Below are positions 2,225 to 10,004 of a DNA stretch of 35,069 nt, piece by piece (positions within the stretch are counted from its first letter, which is position 1; every line of letters starts with the position of its first letter). The DNA comes from Geitlerinema sp. PCC 9228 (GTDB lineage Bacteria > Cyanobacteriota > Cyanobacteriia > Cyanobacteriales > PCC-9228). The translations under genes and the position numbers were made by a program. The stretch covers positions 1-35,069 of the forward strand of contig NZ_LNDC01000034.1 in NCBI RefSeq assembly GCF_001870905.1, in the 5' to 3' direction. Below the pieces are notes generated by a model. It searched no databases. It saw only the letters and a list, made by a program, of their open reading frames with translations, and was not told where the DNA came from.

Positions 2225-3652
2225 GTGGGTACCCCTTCCAGATACTGGCAACTAGCAAAACTAACGGCTGCGGGAACGGTTTTGATTGTCGAAATTCCGT
2301 CGGCAAAGGAGTTTTTCCGCCAGCAGTTTCCCCATATTTTCCACTCCGATAGCATTGCTGACACGAACATCGAACCTCGGTTACTGGCGCTGTGGCAGGA
2401 TCCTCAATACCAGGAAAAGGTGAGTTTGTGCTGGCGCTGTTACATTTCCCATCAAATTTGTCGCGTTTGTTCCCAATTGGAAAAGCAATTTGGGCAGCAA
2501 CATGGGTTCAATCGCGATGACTTGCTGCCTTTGGTTTTAAACGACTCGTTAGAATCTATCAAATCCATGGCATCGGCATCGGTTCCCTCATACCAACCCC
2601 TAGCGGTGCAAATTTTACAAACTTTCAATCCCCAACGGGGCAGTCTTGCCAATTGGGTAGATAAACTGGTCAAACGCGATCGCGAACTCAATCGTTTTTT
2701 ATTACAACACGGTGTTTATCTAGCCAGCGACTGGGCAATTTTAAACGATACCCAACCCAAACAACTAACCAAAATTTTAGGCGAGTTTCACCAATACACC
2801 CATGCCGAAATTGAGTTTACCAAAACCCTGCTAGCCAGCTACCATCGCATTTATCGCGCCCAACGCTTGCGACAAAAACAACAGGGATATTCCCATCGCT
2901 GTTTGCCTCCTACCCAAAGCCAACTCACCGCGATCGCGCAAGACATGCAGCCTAACCTTGCCCAACAACAGTCTCCTGAAACCATTTTAGAACAACTGCA
3001 ATCTTTAGCCGATCGCTTGCGCCAGTATCGCATTTACCGACGCGGCGGTTTCATGCCCAGCCAATCTTTAGACATTCCCGAAACTTCCCAAAAACTGGAA
3101 TACGAACAATATGCAGCACCGCTGCCTGCCAGGGAAAATGACACCAACAACACCCAAGCGCAAATCGATTTTCTACAATTTTACCGCCAAGAATTTGTAC
3201 GCAGTTTGGATCGTTCTCTGGAAGCAGTCTTGCGCGATCGCTTGCGGAAAAAGCAGCGTCAAAAAACCACCCAATCCCAAAAATTATTGCAGGGATTGTT
3301 TTTATTCCACTGCCAGGGAATGGCGATGGGAGACATAGCCCAACAGTTGGAGTTGAAAGCACAGTATCAAGTAACGCGCCTGTTACAGTTAAAAGAGTTT
3401 CGTACCGACGTACGCCAAAAAATGATACTCGATCTCAAAGATTCTATTTGGCAACAGCTACGGCAGTATAAAACGCCACAGGAGTTGCAAAATTTAGAGG
3501 CAAATATAGAAATTGCCCTCAACGAACAGGTGGAAACTGCGATCGCCGCAGCGGAAAAAGAAGCCAGCTTTCCGAAAAAAAACGCCCAACAGAGTCTATT
3601 TGCCCAACGTTTGTGTCGTTTGCTGCGCGAACAGTTCCAACTGTCGCCATAA
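2225..3652 (+). CDS. Sigma-70-like HTH protein of the CHAT/CHASE2 cluster
   Basis: This is a 475-residue cytoplasmic protein with no signal peptide or membrane segment. The N-terminal part holds a cysteine-rich CWRCYISHQICRVC stretch (about residues 75-90) and a long helical region with RGSLANW near 142. The C-terminal part (about 350-400, around GMAMGDIAQQLELKAQYQVTR) resembles the sigma-70 region 4 helix-turn-helix. I recognise the overall sequence as a cyanobacterial family often annotated hypothetical or sigma-like. Direct sigma activity is inference, since no region 2 motif is evident. The GTG at 2225 follows AAAGGA at 2207-2212; the spacing (12) is long, so the start is uncertain. It leads a same-strand series with DUF1822, CHAT-CHASE2 and DUF928-like genes, which suggests it regulates them or responds to them. 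Confidence 0.65.
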   Translation: MGTPSRYWQLAKLTAAGTVLIVEIPSAKEFFRQQFPHIFHSDSIADTNIEPRLLALWQDPQYQEKVSLCWRCYISHQICRVCSQLEKQFGQQHGFNRDDLLPLVLNDSLESIKSMASASVPSYQPLAVQILQTFNPQRGSLANWVDKLVKRDRELNRFLLQHGVYLASDWAILNDTQPKQLTKILGEFHQYTHAEIEFTKTLLASYHRIYRAQRLRQKQQGYSHRCLPPTQSQLTAIAQDMQPNLAQQQSPETILEQLQSLADRLRQYRIYRRGGFMPSQSLDIPETSQKLEYEQYAAPLPARENDTNNTQAQIDFLQFYRQEFVRSLDRSLEAVLRDRLRKKQRQKTTQSQKLLQGLFLFHCQGMAMGDIAQQLELKAQYQVTRLLQLKEFRTDVRQKMILDLKDSIWQQLRQYKTPQELQNLEANIEIALNEQVETAIAAAEKEASFPKKNAQQSLFAQRLCRLLREQFQLSP

Positions 3653-3888
3653 AAAATCAATTGTAACGGTTCCCTTTTGGCATAAGTTCCTCCATGGGTG
3701 GAAATATAGAAGATTGTCAAGGTAGCGTCGTTTCGCGAACCAATCGCGTACCGACAACCATTTTCGGATGGAAATCTCAGCGAAATGGTTTTCTTTCTCA
3801 ATTTAGCGTCTCAGTCAATATCGAAAGAGGTTGGCGAGGATTGGGATTTGGTTAGTTTCATGTTTCATATGGAGTTTCGATTGGTGCT

Positions 3889-5232
3889 ATGGTTCAATCA
3901 CCTTCTTTTTTTGATTGGGAAAGCCTCGATACCAATGCTTTTGCCATCGAACCCAATCGCGCATCGCAAGCGGTGGAGATGACATCGGAGATGGGTTACG
4001 AATCCCAACAATGGCAAATGTACTTACAGTTTTTGGCTTTGGGAGGATTGCAACAGTGGTTGCAGCAGCGATCGCTGGCAGTGCCAGTAGAAGCCAAATT
4101 TCAGAAAAAATACGCACCGGCTACCAATGCTGTGGGATATCTCCAGGCAGGAGGGTGGAAAATTCTACCGGTGGCAATGGGAAGTTTGACGGATGATGCG
4201 ATCGCGATGCCGCGGGTTAGCTTGCACTTACCAACGTTTGCCCATCATTTTTACGTGGCGGTGGAAGTGGCGGAAGAAGCAGAACAAGCTCGAATTTTGG
4301 GTGTGTTGCGCTACGACAAATTGCGAGAACGCTGCCGCCACGAGTCTCTATCCCCAGAAGAGGATTGGCACGATTTTGTTCCCCTGAGTTGGTTTGAATC
4401 ACCCGATCGCTTGTTGCTGTATTTGCGATGTTTGGAAGGCGAGGCGTTGCCGTTGCCAGGGGCAAGTGCCATGGCTGCCTGGGAACAGTTGGAAGAACTC
4501 ACACCAATTGTTTCGCAACTACAAAGCAGCGATCGCCCCTGGTGGGAAATGGTGGCTTACGAACGGGTCAAATCGATTTTAGCCAATCCAGAGTTGCTAG
4601 AACTGGCAACTGCCGACCAACCTTACCAACACCATCGCTTGCTGGAACGGTTGCGGGAAATTTGTCAACCAGCGATTAATGTTGCCAAATGGCTGCAAGA
4701 TGAAATCCAAACCACTGCTAGCGAACTTTCCTGGGTTTTACTACCCAGTCTCACACCGGCTACTTCGGCGTTGCGATCGGTAACGGCGGATTTGGATGCG
4801 ATTTTGTTACAGTTGGAGCGTAATGGCTTAGAAATTTCCGAAACAGCTAGGGGGGCCTATCGCAACATGCAACTGGGGGGCATCTCGCTGAAATTATACG
4901 CGATCGCGTCTGCCGATCTTCCTCACATGCCAGCGACCGATACCGAATCCAGCCATGAGGCGATCGCGCCAAGCGACCAGTGGAGTTTGTTGTTTATTCT
5001 AAGTACCAACGCGGGGGTGACGCTACCGGTGGGAACGACGCTACGGATTAGCGACGAAACTGATTTGTTGTTAGAAAAAAAGGTGAATCCTGGCGATCGC
5101 GAAACCATTCTCTATGCTTGTGTTGTGGGCGAACGATGGGAGTCTTTTTCTGTTGCCATAGCGTTAGACGATCGAGACGCGATCGCGCTGCCTCCGTTTA
5201 TTTTTTGCCCCGACGAGGAGGGGATATCTTAA
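3889..5232 (+). CDS. DUF1822 family protein
   Basis: This 447-residue soluble protein has no signal peptide or membrane helices. The N-terminal half has the pattern of DUF1822, a family found essentially in cyanobacteria: a short FDWESLDTNAFAI start, GYLQAGGWKILPV near residue 84 and HHFYVAVEVAEEAEQARILG near 119. The C-terminal half (about 310-447) looks like a beta-rich region carrying LKLYAIASADLPH and VGTTLRISDETDLLLEKK, the kind of segment that closes many DUF1822 proteins. No enzymatic motif is seen and its function is unknown. It lies 236 bp after the sigma-like gene and 265 bp before the CHAT-CHASE2 gene, all on the same strand, so it is probably a partner in that pathway. The start ATG has GGAG 14 bases upstream, which is only moderately convincing. 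Confidence 0.8.
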   Translation: MVQSPSFFDWESLDTNAFAIEPNRASQAVEMTSEMGYESQQWQMYLQFLALGGLQQWLQQRSLAVPVEAKFQKKYAPATNAVGYLQAGGWKILPVAMGSLTDDAIAMPRVSLHLPTFAHHFYVAVEVAEEAEQARILGVLRYDKLRERCRHESLSPEEDWHDFVPLSWFESPDRLLLYLRCLEGEALPLPGASAMAAWEQLEELTPIVSQLQSSDRPWWEMVAYERVKSILANPELLELATADQPYQHHRLLERLREICQPAINVAKWLQDEIQTTASELSWVLLPSLTPATSALRSVTADLDAILLQLERNGLEISETARGAYRNMQLGGISLKLYAIASADLPHMPATDTESSHEAIAPSDQWSLLFILSTNAGVTLPVGTTLRISDETDLLLEKKVNPGDRETILYACVVGERWESFSVAIALDDRDAIALPPFIFCPDEEGIS

Positions 5233-5497
5233 TTGATTTGGTTGTCAACTCGAACCAGCAACGGTAAATTCAAGTTTCCTCGCATCCCAGTAGTGCCATA
5301 ATAGCAATATAGGACTCCAATGACCGCGATCGCAGTTTGGATGGTTATCAAATTTTGTCGTTTCGATCGAAACCCTAGCCCAAACAGTAGTTGGTTAGTA
5401 GCGGGTTGATGAAAATCCACGATGGCGGACAAATAGCTTTCTCAAAACTTACCGAACCTACAGTTTTTTTTGGCAACCATCTCTTGTTTGTACCATT

Positions 5498-7984
5498 ATG
5501 CCTACAGTTCAATACCGCTTGAATATTTGTAAAGTCGAACAGTTCTGCCTGTTTAAACTGGATTGGGGTCAGGGAAAACAGCTGCTTGCCCATGTCAAAT
5601 ATCCTACGTTTCTCACCAATTTATATCAAGAATGGCAGCGTATCTATATCAGTTTTTACAAAACTGCTTTGCGGGGTCGGGTGGTGGCTAGCGGCGCTAT
5701 GGATGCCTCGCCAGTGGATTGGCATGCCAAATTGGTACAGGCGGAAGCCAAGTTTACCTACGAATTTCATCGTTGGTTGCGCAGTGCAGAGTTGTTCGAT
5801 CTTCGCTCGCAAATTGCCCAACACAGCAATGACAGTAGCAATACTCCTTGTATTGTAGATATTTTTCTGAGTTGCTATCCTTTGGAAATTGCCCGCTTCC
5901 CTTGGGAAAATTGGGAGTTGGCAACGGAATTTGCCAGCAAAGCCCAGATTCGCTTTTCCCGCTATCCCAACAACTTACGTAGCGACAACCACGACAAAAA
6001 CCAAGCCTTTTTTATTGCTCGCAAACCCAGAATTTTAACCGTTGCTGGTGACAGCACGGGATTGGATTTTCAAGCAGAGAAAGAAGCAATTTCTCATCTA
6101 GAGAAACGACTGAATATTCATTTTTTCGGCTGGCAACCTGGGAGAGATATTCAACAGTTAAAAACTGAACTACGCCGGGTAATTACTGACCCGTTGGGTT
6201 GGGATATTTTATTATTTTTAGGTCATAGCAACGAAACGGAAGTTACTGGGGGGGAAATTGCGATCGCACCCGATGTTTCCATTTCCATGAGCGAAATTGC
6301 CAGCGATTTGGCTTTGGCGCGCCAACGAGGATTAAAGTTTGCCCTGTTCAACTCTTGCAACGGGTTAAATATTGCCGATGCTGTCATCGATTTGGGGTTG
6401 TCGCAAGTGGTGGTTATGCGCGAACCTATCCACGACCGCGTTGCGAAAGAATTTTTAACCGAATTTCTACAAAAAATTTCCGTTGGCGAAAACGTTCATG
6501 ATGCCCTATTGTCTACCTGTAAATATCTCAAAACCAAGCAAAATTTAACCTATCCTTCTGCCTATCTCATTCCTTCTATTTTCCGACATCCCGATGCCCA
6601 ACTGTTTCGCTTGCAACCACGGGGATGGCTGGCGAAAGCTAAACAATGTTTGCCCAATAAACTGGAAGCTTTTGTCCTTTCTCTTGTCTTTTTATGCAGC
6701 TTGGAACAGCTACCAATACAACCTTGGTTGTTGGCAACCAGACAACTTGCTCAATCGATTTATCGCGACTACACCGGGCAACTTTCTACTCCCAAATTGT
6801 CGCAACAATTACCACCGCCAATTTTGTTAGTCGAAATTGACGCCAGTTCTTTGCGATCGGCACCTGATAAAATTAGCAAACCGACACCTTTAAACCGCCG
6901 CTATTTGGCTAGATTAGTTGACAAATTAACGGCTTTAGATGTACCCATTGTTGGTATTGATTATTTGCTTGATTTTCATCAGGAAGAAAACGATGCTTAT
7001 TTGGCGCGATCGCTAAAATCTGGTGTCACTCAAACACCACCGACTTGGTTTGTTTTTGCTGCTATTAGGGGGTCTGAGGAGGGGAGTTGGAATTCGGTTA
7101 ATTCCAATTTGGCAAGCTCCAATTGGAGTTTGAACGGTCACATATATGGGTTGACCAATCCCAGTTATACAAAAGTTTGGTACATGCGGTTTCTCCTGGG
7201 AAAAGAACCAGAAGAAATTCCCTATCCGTTTCCATATGTATTGGCTTGGTTGGTAGAAATTCGAGCAGAAAATGCCGAACACATGTTCCCAAAACCTAGT
7301 TTAAAAAGCCAATCAGATTTAATCAAACAAATGAAGAAAAAACTTCCAAAAAAATACGAAAACTTACAGCAAGATCGTTTCTTTTATCCCTGGCAAAAAC
7401 CAGTTTTTACTAGTTTTGCCTATCAATTTCTAGGGCAACGATGGTTCCACCCTACCATTGATTTTTCTATTCCTTCCAGCAGCGTTTATCAAACGATAAC
7501 TGCTAGAGATTTATTAGCTATGTCAAACCAGAAATCATCTCTTCAAAACACACAAGCTGCTATTATAATTCCCGGAGAATATGACAATATGGGATTGACG
7601 CAAGGTAGTCCCGATGGGCATCCAATTCCCGATGCATTTCAATATTGGATTGCTGATAAAGATAGAATGGAGATTTACGGTGGTGAAATTCATGCTTTTA
7701 TGATAGATCATATACTCAACCAGCGTCGGATTTATTGGATTCCCGATATTCTCGCGATCGCGGTGATGGTTGTGTTGGGTAGTATTCTCAAAAAAATGTT
7801 TGTCAATCGCAGTCAGTTACCTTCGCGTCGAAAAATATTTTATTTTGGCAGCGCGATCGCAATTTTATACGTAGCATCCAGCCTACAAATATACGTTTGG
7901 TGGCAAATTGCCATTCCCATGGTTTTGCCAGCTGTAGCTTTAAGCAGCTATCTACTACCTATGCTTTGGAGACGAAAACAATGA
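5498..7984 (+). CDS. CHAT caspase-like protease fused to CHASE2 membrane sensor
   Basis: This 828-residue protein joins two modules. The N-terminal cytoplasmic part (about 120-375) is a CHAT domain, a caspase/separase-like peptidase fold. The His of FLGHSNE (His243) and the Cys of LFNSCNG (Cys287) form the expected catalytic dyad, so it looks active. A hydrophobic helix near 390-410 precedes a CHASE2 extracytoplasmic sensor domain (about 415-735, with PPILLVEIDASSL and GIDYLLDF). The protein ends with about three membrane helices between 745 and 825, the usual CHASE2 anchor. CHASE2 normally feeds kinases or cyclases; here the output appears to be a protease. The stop overlaps the next start (ATGA). 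The start at 5498 lacks a clear ribosome site. The substrate is unknown; the adjacent sigma-like and DUF1822 proteins are candidates by context only. Confidence 0.85.
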   Translation: MPTVQYRLNICKVEQFCLFKLDWGQGKQLLAHVKYPTFLTNLYQEWQRIYISFYKTALRGRVVASGAMDASPVDWHAKLVQAEAKFTYEFHRWLRSAELFDLRSQIAQHSNDSSNTPCIVDIFLSCYPLEIARFPWENWELATEFASKAQIRFSRYPNNLRSDNHDKNQAFFIARKPRILTVAGDSTGLDFQAEKEAISHLEKRLNIHFFGWQPGRDIQQLKTELRRVITDPLGWDILLFLGHSNETEVTGGEIAIAPDVSISMSEIASDLALARQRGLKFALFNSCNGLNIADAVIDLGLSQVVVMREPIHDRVAKEFLTEFLQKISVGENVHDALLSTCKYLKTKQNLTYPSAYLIPSIFRHPDAQLFRLQPRGWLAKAKQCLPNKLEAFVLSLVFLCSLEQLPIQPWLLATRQLAQSIYRDYTGQLSTPKLSQQLPPPILLVEIDASSLRSAPDKISKPTPLNRRYLARLVDKLTALDVPIVGIDYLLDFHQEENDAYLARSLKSGVTQTPPTWFVFAAIRGSEEGSWNSVNSNLASSNWSLNGHIYGLTNPSYTKVWYMRFLLGKEPEEIPYPFPYVLAWLVEIRAENAEHMFPKPSLKSQSDLIKQMKKKLPKKYENLQQDRFFYPWQKPVFTSFAYQFLGQRWFHPTIDFSIPSSSVYQTITARDLLAMSNQKSSLQNTQAAIIIPGEYDNMGLTQGSPDGHPIPDAFQYWIADKDRMEIYGGEIHAFMIDHILNQRRIYWIPDILAIAVMVVLGSILKKMFVNRSQLPSRRKIFYFGSAIAILYVASSLQIYVWWQIAIPMVLPAVALSSYLLPMLWRRKQ

Positions 7985-8154
7985 TAAAAATTACATTGAT
8001 TTCAATTAGTATTTTCACGGGATGTCTGCTTTCCTTTCAATGGGTCGATCTCAAAAAAATAGATATTCCTTGGACCAATCTAATACAAAATCAACCACCA
8101 GGAGAAAGCGACGGCGAGCACGGCTTAAGCCACAGAGAAATGGGAGGTTTTTGA
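7981..8154 (+). CDS. Small exported peptide, DUF928-like N-terminal relic or partner
   Basis: This is a 57-residue open frame. Its ATG overlaps the CHAT-CHASE2 stop (ATGA) and its stop overlaps the next start (TGATG), so it is probably translated by coupling. Residues 1-20 are a hydrophobic signal-like segment containing FTGC, a poor match to a lipobox. The rest carries WTNLIQNQPPGESDGEHG. The next protein begins the same way after its signal peptide, with WTTIFNREEPGESEGD. It therefore looks like a short paralogue of that gene's N-terminus, either a decayed duplicate or a genuine small secreted partner. Function is unknown. Confidence 0.55.
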   Translation: MIKITLISISIFTGCLLSFQWVDLKKIDIPWTNLIQNQPPGESDGEHGLSHREMGGF

Positions 8155-8813
8155 TGAAATTTTTACCCAATCTTATGGAAACTTTACCTATTATTTTCTT
8201 ATTATTTCAAATAGGAATAATACCAGTTCGTGCCCAAGAAAATAATTTATCTTGGACGACAATTTTCAACCGAGAAGAACCGGGGGAAAGTGAAGGCGAT
8301 ACTCCTTTAGTAAATCGAGGAGACATTTGCGCGATCGCGCCAAGGAACGAAATTTGGCACCAACAACCGGTATTTGTCTGGCAGGGAGAATTGGTCAAAG
8401 TTGAAGTGCAACCCCGCAACAGACGCGATACGGTTTTGTGGAGCCAACCAGTTACCCCTGACGATTCCCATGTGGTTTACGATGGCGATCCCCTGCAGCC
8501 AGGAAAAGCTTACGATTGGGTAGCATTTTTAGGAGAAAATGCTGTTTTGGAAGTACCGTTTCAAGTTTCTCCTTATGCCACGCGCGCCCAACATTGGGGA
8601 AATGTGCGCGACTTAGAAACCAAACTCCAACAACAAGGTGCCAATGCCAACGAAATTGCCCTGCATCGCGCCCAATATTTTCAACAACAAGGGTGGCGAT
8701 CGGATGTTATCCAAGAAGCTTTTTCCGTTGCCAATCCTAGTGAAGAATTGCAACAAGTTCGTCGGCGCTGGCAAACCAGTATTTGCTCGCCGCGATCGCA
8801 ATCCAATGAATAA
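8154..8813 (+). CDS. DUF928-like secreted protein
   Basis: This is a 219-residue exported protein. The chosen ATG overlaps the preceding stop (TGATG), follows a GGGAGG ribosome site and starts a good signal peptide (hydrophobic residues about 8-24, cleavage after VRA). The mature part opens with PGESEGD and RGDICAIAPRNEIWHQQPVFVWQ. This order (Pro/Gly-rich linker, Arg-Gly-Asp-x-Cys, then a beta domain beginning 'P.FVW') recalls DUF928 proteins, which often neighbour CHAT or CHASE2 genes in cyanobacteria; I class it as DUF928-like rather than certain. The C-terminal third (about 145-210) is helical with 'ALHRAQYFQQQGW'. An earlier in-frame ATG at 8022 would remove the signal peptide from the N-terminus, so it was rejected. 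Probable role: an extracytoplasmic partner of the CHASE2 sensor (inference). Confidence 0.7.
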   Translation: MKFLPNLMETLPIIFLLFQIGIIPVRAQENNLSWTTIFNREEPGESEGDTPLVNRGDICAIAPRNEIWHQQPVFVWQGELVKVEVQPRNRRDTVLWSQPVTPDDSHVVYDGDPLQPGKAYDWVAFLGENAVLEVPFQVSPYATRAQHWGNVRDLETKLQQQGANANEIALHRAQYFQQQGWRSDVIQEAFSVANPSEELQQVRRRWQTSICSPRSQSNE

Positions 8814-9263
8814 AGGGGAATTTTGTGACTTTCGGCATTTGGGTAGAAAAGGAGGAAGAAGGATACGACTTTTGAAAAACAAGAATTTTTTGAGATCTTT
8901 TTTATTATCTTCGCAGAGGCGCTTCGCACAGAATCCCTACAGAAATATCCCAATTGTTTATTGCAGATTGTTAAGGAAATGGTAGGATATATTTGTCACC
9001 TAGTCATACGAAATCCGATGTACATACACCCACAAAAATGCAGGAATAGTGCCCCCCTGCCTCCCCCTACAGAAAGATTGTGGTTTCTCTATGTTGGATT
9101 TGGTATTAATACCTTCGTATCTACAGGGATATGGCTGTTTGTATGACAAAATATTGCGATTTAAATAAGAAAATTTTTCTCGTGCTAAAATCAAAATATA
9201 TCTTGTTGGCAGATAGGGATAAATAAGCGATAAAAAACAAAACTTTCCTAAGGAGTTCGGTCA
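8814..9263. other. Intergenic region with degenerate repeat copy
   Basis: These 450 bp have no credible gene. They hold repeat copy D (8864-8984), a perfect 12-bp palindrome GGTATTAATACC at 9102-9113 and the AAGGAG ribosome site of the next gene at about 9251-9256. The remainder is AT-rich and probably carries the promoter of the 9264 gene. Confidence 0.6.
8864..8984. repeat. MITE-like repeat, copy D (diverged left end)
   Basis: This 121-bp copy begins TACGACTTTTGAAAAACAA, which matches the left end of copy B at most positions, and ends with an intact AAGGAAATGGTA. The central palindrome has decayed (GGCGCTTCGC, then CCCTACA). Length and register match the other three copies, so it is an old full-length insertion. 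It lies about 50 bp after the DUF928-like gene. Confidence 0.6.
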
Positions 9264-10004
9264 ATGAAAAAGAACTTTTTGACGACTGGGGTTTCTGCTG
9301 CCTTGGCAACGGCTGTGTTGGCTTATCCCGCGATCGCAGTTAATTGGATAAACATGGGTCGTGCTTCTAGCGGAGAATCTATTTTTGTAGACAGCGATAG
9401 CATCCGCAGCCAGCCAGGGGGCATTGATTTTCGCTACCGCATTGGCAACGAAACCATCGACGCCACTGCCTACTGTGAGGGGAATAAATGGTATGCTGAC
9501 GGATATGGTTGGTACTCACCGCAAAGCCAAGCCACCCAAGATATGTTTAACTACGTTTGCAACGCTCGTAGAAATAGTTCGGGGCAGACTTGGCTGAATA
9601 TGGGAAGCGCTTCCACAGGGGAAACTATTTGGGTAAATTGGTACAGTATGGTGATGACCGACCGAGGCGTTGATTTTCAGTACCGAATTGGTAGCGAATC
9701 GATCGCGGCTACGGCGGATTGTTCGCGCAATCGCTGGTATGCGGAAGGATTTGGCTGGTATTCTCCCCAAAGTCGAGCCACCCAAGGAATGATTGATTTT
9801 GTTTGCCATGCTAGCGCCAATCCGCAGCAGAGAACAGCTGTGGTTTTTGACCCACCATCCAACGTTCGAGCTTACCCAAATGGCGATATTATCTGTTCGG
9901 TTCGCCAGCAAAATACCATTAATTTATACGGCAACGATGGTGAGTGGTACTATACCGATGCTTGCGGTTCCATAGGGATGATTCACCAAAGTCAAATTCG
10001 CTAA
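9264..10004 (+). CDS. Secreted protein with two tandem Cys-paired domains and SH3-like tail
   Basis: This 246-residue exported protein has a clear signal peptide (1-25, cleavage after AIA). Residues 28-99 and 110-181 are two copies of one domain, each running from a W-(I/L)-N-M-G start through SGES or TGET, FRYRIG or FQYRIG and GWYSPQS to a final Cys. Each copy has a Cys pair (71/99 and 153/181), a likely disulfide. Residues about 195-246 (SNVRAYPNGDI, C211 and C234) resemble a bacterial SH3 domain. The repeated unit recalls surface-adhesin-E-like domains, a loose resemblance. An AAGGAG ribosome site precedes the ATG. It is probably a periplasmic or cell-surface protein whose specific role is unknown. 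Confidence 0.75.
   Translation: MKKNFLTTGVSAALATAVLAYPAIAVNWINMGRASSGESIFVDSDSIRSQPGGIDFRYRIGNETIDATAYCEGNKWYADGYGWYSPQSQATQDMFNYVCNARRNSSGQTWLNMGSASTGETIWVNWYSMVMTDRGVDFQYRIGSESIAATADCSRNRWYAEGFGWYSPQSRATQGMIDFVCHASANPQQRTAVVFDPPSNVRAYPNGDIICSVRQQNTINLYGNDGEWYYTDACGSIGMIHQSQIR

Follow-up and report, generated by a model that had tools for sequence, protein, structure and literature searches.

Gene neighbourhoods that combine an EACC2-caspase with an ECF sigma factor and a DUF1822 protein have been predicted by Kaur et al. 2021 (PMC8195603), and in the passages concerned CHASE2 appears among the variable C-termini and an output running from proteolysis to transcription is proposed. Secondly, the TPR-CHAT protein Csx29 cleaves Csx30, which inhibits CASP-sigma (PMC10028731). 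Thirdly, nearby CHASE2 and DUF928 genes have been noted in Nostoc punctiforme, beside WD40 genes and in one lineage (PMC5587647). Functions have hardly been assigned to DUF1822, to DUF928 or to the many CHAT proteins of cyanobacteria, and DUF928 and DUF1822 are scarcely mentioned in the literature we searched.

The window, i.e. the entire 35,069-nucleotide stretch of Geitlerinema sp. PCC 9228 DNA that was analysed, contains at 2225-8813 one copy of a cassette that is widespread in cyanobacteria. The features of this block are as follows.

2225..3652, + strand: predicted divergent sigma70-type factor (family SIG_A), 475 aa (BLASTP, hhalign of families, AF2-model matches)
3675..3708, + strand: degenerate promoter-motif candidate TTTTGGCATAAGTTCCTCCATGGGTGGAAATATA upstream of the DUF1822 gene, not significant (by eye, PWM -4.3)
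3889..5232, + strand: DUF1822 protein, 447 aa (Pfam PF08852, E 5.7e-31)
5498..7984, + strand: CHAT-CHASE2 membrane sensor/protease, 828 aa (Pfam CHASE2 and CHAT, hydropathy)
7981..8154, + strand: 57-aa ORF with a hydrophobic N-terminus (partial duplicate of the DUF928-like N-terminal region)
8154..8813, + strand: DUF928-like, putatively exported protein, 219 aa, with an apparent signal peptide ending at about VRA-Q (orthologues and paralogues match PF06051)

The first-pass annotation described five same-strand genes here, and all are present on the + strand at the coordinates given, with the correction that the DUF928-like gene starts at 8154 and not at 8022. CHAT, CHASE2 and DUF1822 pass their Pfam cut-offs, and in the same search of the window the sigma-like protein, the DUF928-like protein and the small ORF have no match of their own. 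The first three genes are spaced by 236 and 265 bp; they are closely packed in most relatives. ATGA stop-start overlaps join the CHAT-CHASE2 gene to the small ORF and the small ORF to the DUF928-like gene, and because of these overlapping codons the last three genes may well be translationally coupled. Rfam and tRNA scans of the window found nothing, and scanning the block for generic promoters and terminators gave no excess over shuffles. To the right, at 9264-10004, lies a gene for a secreted protein of 246 aa that contains two similar ~80-aa repeats and has a weak Adhesin_E match, without the promoter motif described below.

The cassette resembles a pathway that carries signals from the cell surface to the control of genes, and the original view of it as a membrane-sensed signalling cassette with an apparently intact caspase-like output and a transcription factor alongside is supported. 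We put at about 0.5 the probability that the block is a membrane-sensor/protease/sigma cassette in which CHAT cuts DUF1822 and thereby frees the sigma factor to drive motif-bearing genes. CHASE2, as the extracytoplasmic domain, and the exported DUF928-type protein would jointly sense a cell-surface signal and relay it through the membrane to CHAT, the N-terminal protease in the cytoplasm. Once active, CHAT would cut a sigma inhibitor, most likely DUF1822 serving as anti-sigma or adaptor, and the released sigma factor would transcribe its own gene or cassette together with genes carrying the promoter TGMATAaG-N12-cAGAnnTAtat; in relatives this predicted regulon would consist largely of exported proteins, among which TPR-CHAT proteins and Tat-exported caspases would be numerous. 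The sensing, CHAT and sigma parts of this scheme draw on genomic evidence, and cutting of DUF1822 is proposed by analogy with Csx29/Csx30/CASP-sigma and from gene adjacency.

Of 390 genomes of the class that were searched, 224 encode relatives of CHAT-CHASE2, and most of the loci retrieved keep the order sigma, DUF1822, CHAT-CHASE2, DUF928-like. Among 71 loci surveyed, the window included, a sigma gene is present in 52, a DUF1822 gene in 56 and a DUF928-like gene in 50, and the gene order is far beyond chance. The co-occurrence on which the proposed system had been made to depend is thus conserved in other genomes, and the system survives this survey. A locus mostly keeps to one set of gene types: 39 are of class A, the window's cassette type, in all four genes, and 27 are of the related class B throughout with DUF928_B, 18 of these with SIG_B and nine with SIG_S2. 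Three more cassettes of a related class are found in the window's own genome (contigs C60, C101 and C163), and each of these contigs holds an extra CHAT gene besides its cassette. At L087:5838-8285 a class A cassette is followed, 23 nt further on, by sigma and DUF1822 genes of another class, giving tandem cassettes. A large gene (~840-1810 aa) is inserted upstream of CHAT-CHASE2 in L041-L043, L047, L054-L056, L077 and L081, whose products have an apparent signal peptide and are TPR-like in several loci, with the promoter motif in some (L077:2436, L081:11975).

The architecture of the CHAT proteins themselves is also variable. In L100 (7093-11772), L129-L133, L136 and L138 an N-terminal CHAT module is carried on proteins of ~1500-1650 aa, that of L100 with nSTAND1 and WD40; DUF1822 and sigma genes lie upstream in most, and there is no DUF928 gene. 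The module is C-terminal, with the dyad near residues 783-867, in proteins adjoining DUF1822 at L102:7346-10186, L145:1809-4691, L146:1769-4543 and L147:6941-9811, and the L102 protein starts with pentapeptide-like repeats.

The same N-terminal CHAT module is found with TPR, nSTAND1-WD40 and other C-termini, as in conflict systems, and this suits a reading in which CHAT is an autopeptidase or conflict effector that, on sensing, would cleave itself and set free an effector or cell-death activity, with the sigma factor merely adding a transcriptional arm; autopeptidase activation is put forward for this class in the pertinent passages of PMC8195603. We rate this account as a minority possibility, perhaps one in several. 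Most of the variant CHAT genes still adjoin sigma and DUF1822 genes, and both of these genes lie beside 80 of 98 CHASE2 variants, DUF1822 usually between sigma and CHAT, so transcription looks like a core output. Nor does any PADLOC model match the six proteins encoded by the block and the next gene, although this means only that they are uncatalogued there.

In the CHAT-CHASE2 protein an N-terminal alpha/beta region and CHAT occupy residues 1-365, a transmembrane segment lies at ~389, and CHASE2 (432-762, mostly extracytoplasmic) sits between this single segment and a C-terminal transmembrane cluster at 743-826, as judged from Pfam (E 1.3e-15) and hydropathy. The CHAT match is closer to the limit (E 2.8e-5; 24.1 bits against a cut-off of 24), and the two domains do occur in one protein as first proposed; His243 and Cys287 are also exactly as given and are conserved. 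This dyad is kept in 69/70 sequences and in 101/101 CHASE2-bearing members. Its exceptions are both non-CHASE2 relatives, L096 being truncated and L101:2605-4596 a second copy that has degenerated, and four further apparent exceptions are alignment artefacts. L101 encodes two CHAT relatives in one region, of which that at 7069-10002 is intact and that at 2605-4596 has lost its catalytic residues (Cys to Ala) and is possibly a pseudoprotease partner.

The dyad also bears on whether CHAT binds instead of cutting, with CHASE2-CHAT holding DUF1822 and sigma at the membrane and freeing them on signal. A membrane sensor, an adaptor and a sigma factor would fit such sequestration without any cutting, and one relative, that at L101:2605-4596, has lost the dyad, but retention in every CHASE2 member is hard to explain without catalysis and we consider binding alone improbable. 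The median pairwise identities within class A are those to be expected of an enzyme behind a diversifying sensor: CHAT is the most conserved (0.57), and CHASE2 (0.38) and the DUF928-like protein (0.29) are among the least. Residues 1-170 of CHAT-CHASE2, where the constant EACC2 alpha+beta domain of the published class might lie, are conserved with a median of 0.46.

The 219-aa exported protein is assigned as DUF928-like through its relatives, given that 18 of 38 orthologues match PF06051 (best 1.3e-7) and that the genes in the same position in the paralogous cassettes of its own genome match at 1.6e-55 and 4.1e-53. DUF928 is a specific partner of CHASE2. A DUF928-type gene follows 86 of 96 CHASE2 variants compared with 1 of 28 non-CHASE2 variants (Fisher p 6e-18, with counts that are non-independent since the genomes are related), and the sole exception is the CHAT protein of C101, in which TPR repeats replace CHASE2 and a DUF928-like gene nevertheless follows. 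This pairing upholds the earlier suggestion of an exported partner coupled to CHASE2. Distance matrices from 43 loci are strongly correlated for DUF928-like/CHASE2 (r 0.85, or 0.74 once CHAT is controlled for) and for sigma/DUF1822 (r 0.83), but they fail to single out pairs cleanly, because DUF928-like/DUF1822 distances are also correlated (r 0.83).

The 57-aa ORF had been taken as a second exported partner, and this we reject. Its tail (27-52) aligns with residues 30-55 of the DUF928-like protein, within the N-terminal linker, a match that none of 2000 shuffles equals, and no homologue occurs in the other surveyed loci; it is thus a local partial duplicate.

The sigma-like protein and its 39 aligned relatives have essentially no Pfam sigma match, and an ECF match is absent in the window protein and in most relatives. 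Its assignment as a divergent sigma70 factor comes through relatives, specifically the class B sigma factor on C163 of the same genome, which has both Sigma70_r2 and Sigma70_r4. The window protein matches this by BLASTP (E 7e-8), and hhalign of the two families gives a probability of 98.6 and E 6.4e-16 across the region-2-to-4 part, with a region-2-like segment at about residues 129-175 and the region-4 HTH at about 350-400. What was earlier termed a region-4-like regulator is, on this indirect evidence, a sigma70 factor with a region-2-like part as well. The AlphaFold (AF2) model is mediocre (pLDDT 69), and its VIA-align matches are nearly all sigma factors, at a Z of ~6 that is in the noise range for helical proteins and proves nothing alone.

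The DUF1822 assignment is secure, as the first annotation had it (PF08852, E 5.7e-31). The protein is a candidate anti-sigma factor or adaptor and a candidate CHAT substrate; its model is poor (pLDDT 61), with no recognised anti-sigma fold and no confident structural match, and Foldseek returned no significant match for either the sigma or the DUF1822 model. An apparent natural sigma-DUF1822 fusion in L066 was discarded, since sigma is encoded there by a split gene whose last part reads out of frame, for which a frameshift or assembly error is likelier.

The regions upstream of class A sigma genes share the promoter-like motif given above, and sites outside these upstreams yield the consensus TGMATA-AG-N12-AGA-NN-TA-tat, in which the spacing is fixed. 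Class A loci contain 47 such sites beyond the sigma upstreams, whereas order-2 Markov sequence gives 2 and the reversed PWM 1, and 35 of the 47 are within 150 nt before an ORF. Counted over 194 genomes, hits to the strict pattern average 2.19 in the 57 with this sigma factor and 0.32 in the 137 without (p 4e-13; genome size only partly controlled; 22 and 25 hits in all for backwards-pattern controls). Of 49 hits in eight near-complete genomes, 32 are no more than 50 kb from a sigma gene against 1.5 expected, or 24 of 40 by a hand count that leaves out hits in the training loci. A search upstream of the SIG_B, SIG_S and SIG_S2 genes found nothing above shuffles.

The window's own genome differs from its relatives in this respect. 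Its sigma gene is without the motif (best PWM -3.4; refined PWM 3.4), the genome has no excess of sites (64 hits and 77 for the backwards pattern), and the TTTTGGCATAAGTTCCTCCATGGGTGGAAATATA pattern at 3675..3708 is no rarer than chance in the window. A variant, GGCATAAG, was set aside as an own-genome promoter, being no better than its control, and the CHAT genes of this genome share no common upstream dyad. The regulon is consequently evidence on the family and not on this copy. The first-pass annotation had the scheme end in a change of transcription, for which the conserved motif and regulon of the relatives speak, whereas the window's own genome has no demonstrable motif.

These data bear on a further reading, that the genes stay together without sharing a function and that the motif serves a different regulator, encoded within the same gene-rich clusters. 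Besides the result for the window's genome, this would accommodate the finding of a recognisable site at only 26 of 54 sigma genes, i.e. about half. The motif does, however, track this sigma factor across genomes and cluster at its gene, it precedes cassette genes that are split from sigma (CHAT-CHASE2 in L070 and L107, DUF1822 in L040), and its two-box layout is promoter-like, with most sites ~25-60 nt before start codons. We therefore think this further reading very improbable, and retain the reading in which the sigma factor would act on the motif.

In many relatives the sigma factor seems to activate a set of genes whose products are for the most part exported and in many cases caspase-like. 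CHAT or C14 domains are found in 26 of 67 non-cassette targets of at least 200 aa (~40%), as against 65 of the 462 remaining ORFs nearby (p 6e-6, using profiles built from the targets). Twenty hand-chosen targets that were annotated include six CHAT proteins (with TPR), five Tat-type exported Peptidase_C14 caspases and one C11 peptidase, the remainder being TPR, PPC or TPS-domain proteins, and by a crude hydropathy rule 57 of 127 targets have signal-peptide-like N-termini compared with 30% of ORFs. Caspases and TPR-CHAT proteins among the targets would also be in keeping with the autopeptidase or effector account. For the sigma-release reading they raise a more tentative idea, that a membrane-gated caspase-like protease acts through a dedicated sigma factor to produce, besides other exported proteins, more caspase-like proteases (exported TPR-CHAT proteins and C14 caspases), an envelope-to-transcription caspase cascade that would parallel CASP with DUF928-CHASE2 as its envelope receptor.

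The closest published counterpart is that of Kaur et al. 2021 (PMC8195603), which in the passages concerned likewise has a caspase-like protein with variable C-termini, CHASE2 included, and sigma and DUF1822 neighbours; the constant N-terminal module described there may correspond to the conserved N-terminal region of the present proteins. The linkage of sigma factor, DUF1822 and caspase on which the first-pass protease-to-transcription scheme was built is thus conserved, and the idea itself is not new, because this core had been published as a prediction. Those passages have no mention of DUF928 and no promoter or regulon, and describe an ECF sigma factor, while the window protein is a long and apparently divergent sigma70 factor that individual Pfam models miss. 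What is new is the sigma70 identity of this subfamily, as assigned through relatives, the DUF928-CHASE2 rule, the 101/101 dyad, and the promoter motif with its protease-rich regulon; the rule, the sigma identity, and the promoter and regulon were not found in the literature searched, a scope that excludes most subscription papers and bioRxiv. The CHASE2-DUF928 neighbours of Nostoc punctiforme (PMC5587647) are a local instance of a pairing that is general here and specific to CHASE2 variants. The SigJ regulon of the same species (PMC6495340) likewise has a cyanobacterial alternative sigma factor with a defined promoter, but its J-Box, GGGaAtacT, is unlike TGMATAaG-N12-cAGAnnTAtat, and we reject their identity. 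In the RseA/DegS-RpoE and RsiW-SigW systems of regulated proteolysis, as mentioned in PMC10028731, the comparison differs in that the protease proposed here is cytoplasmic, caspase-like and fused to the sensor.

If the scheme is true, DUF1822, DUF928 and CHAT proteins would be placed in one pathway, and the promoter sequence would make its regulon testable in genetically tractable Nostoc strains. The parallel with CASP/Craspase of type III-E CRISPR (PMC10028731), where a CHAT protease cuts the inhibitor of an adjacent sigma factor, lies in the proposed scheme only: cleavage is demonstrated there and predicted here, DUF1822 would play the part of Csx30, and none of the six proteins has a PADLOC match to Cas7-11 or type III-E. 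The triggers also differ, RNA bound by Cas7-11 in the one case and a membrane CHASE2/DUF928 sensor in the other. The best mechanism we can offer is that the cassette is a membrane-gated analogue of the Csx29/Csx30/sigma pathway, such that the control of sigma factors by CHAT proteases, with CRISPR CASP as the known case, would exist also as an envelope-signalling device.
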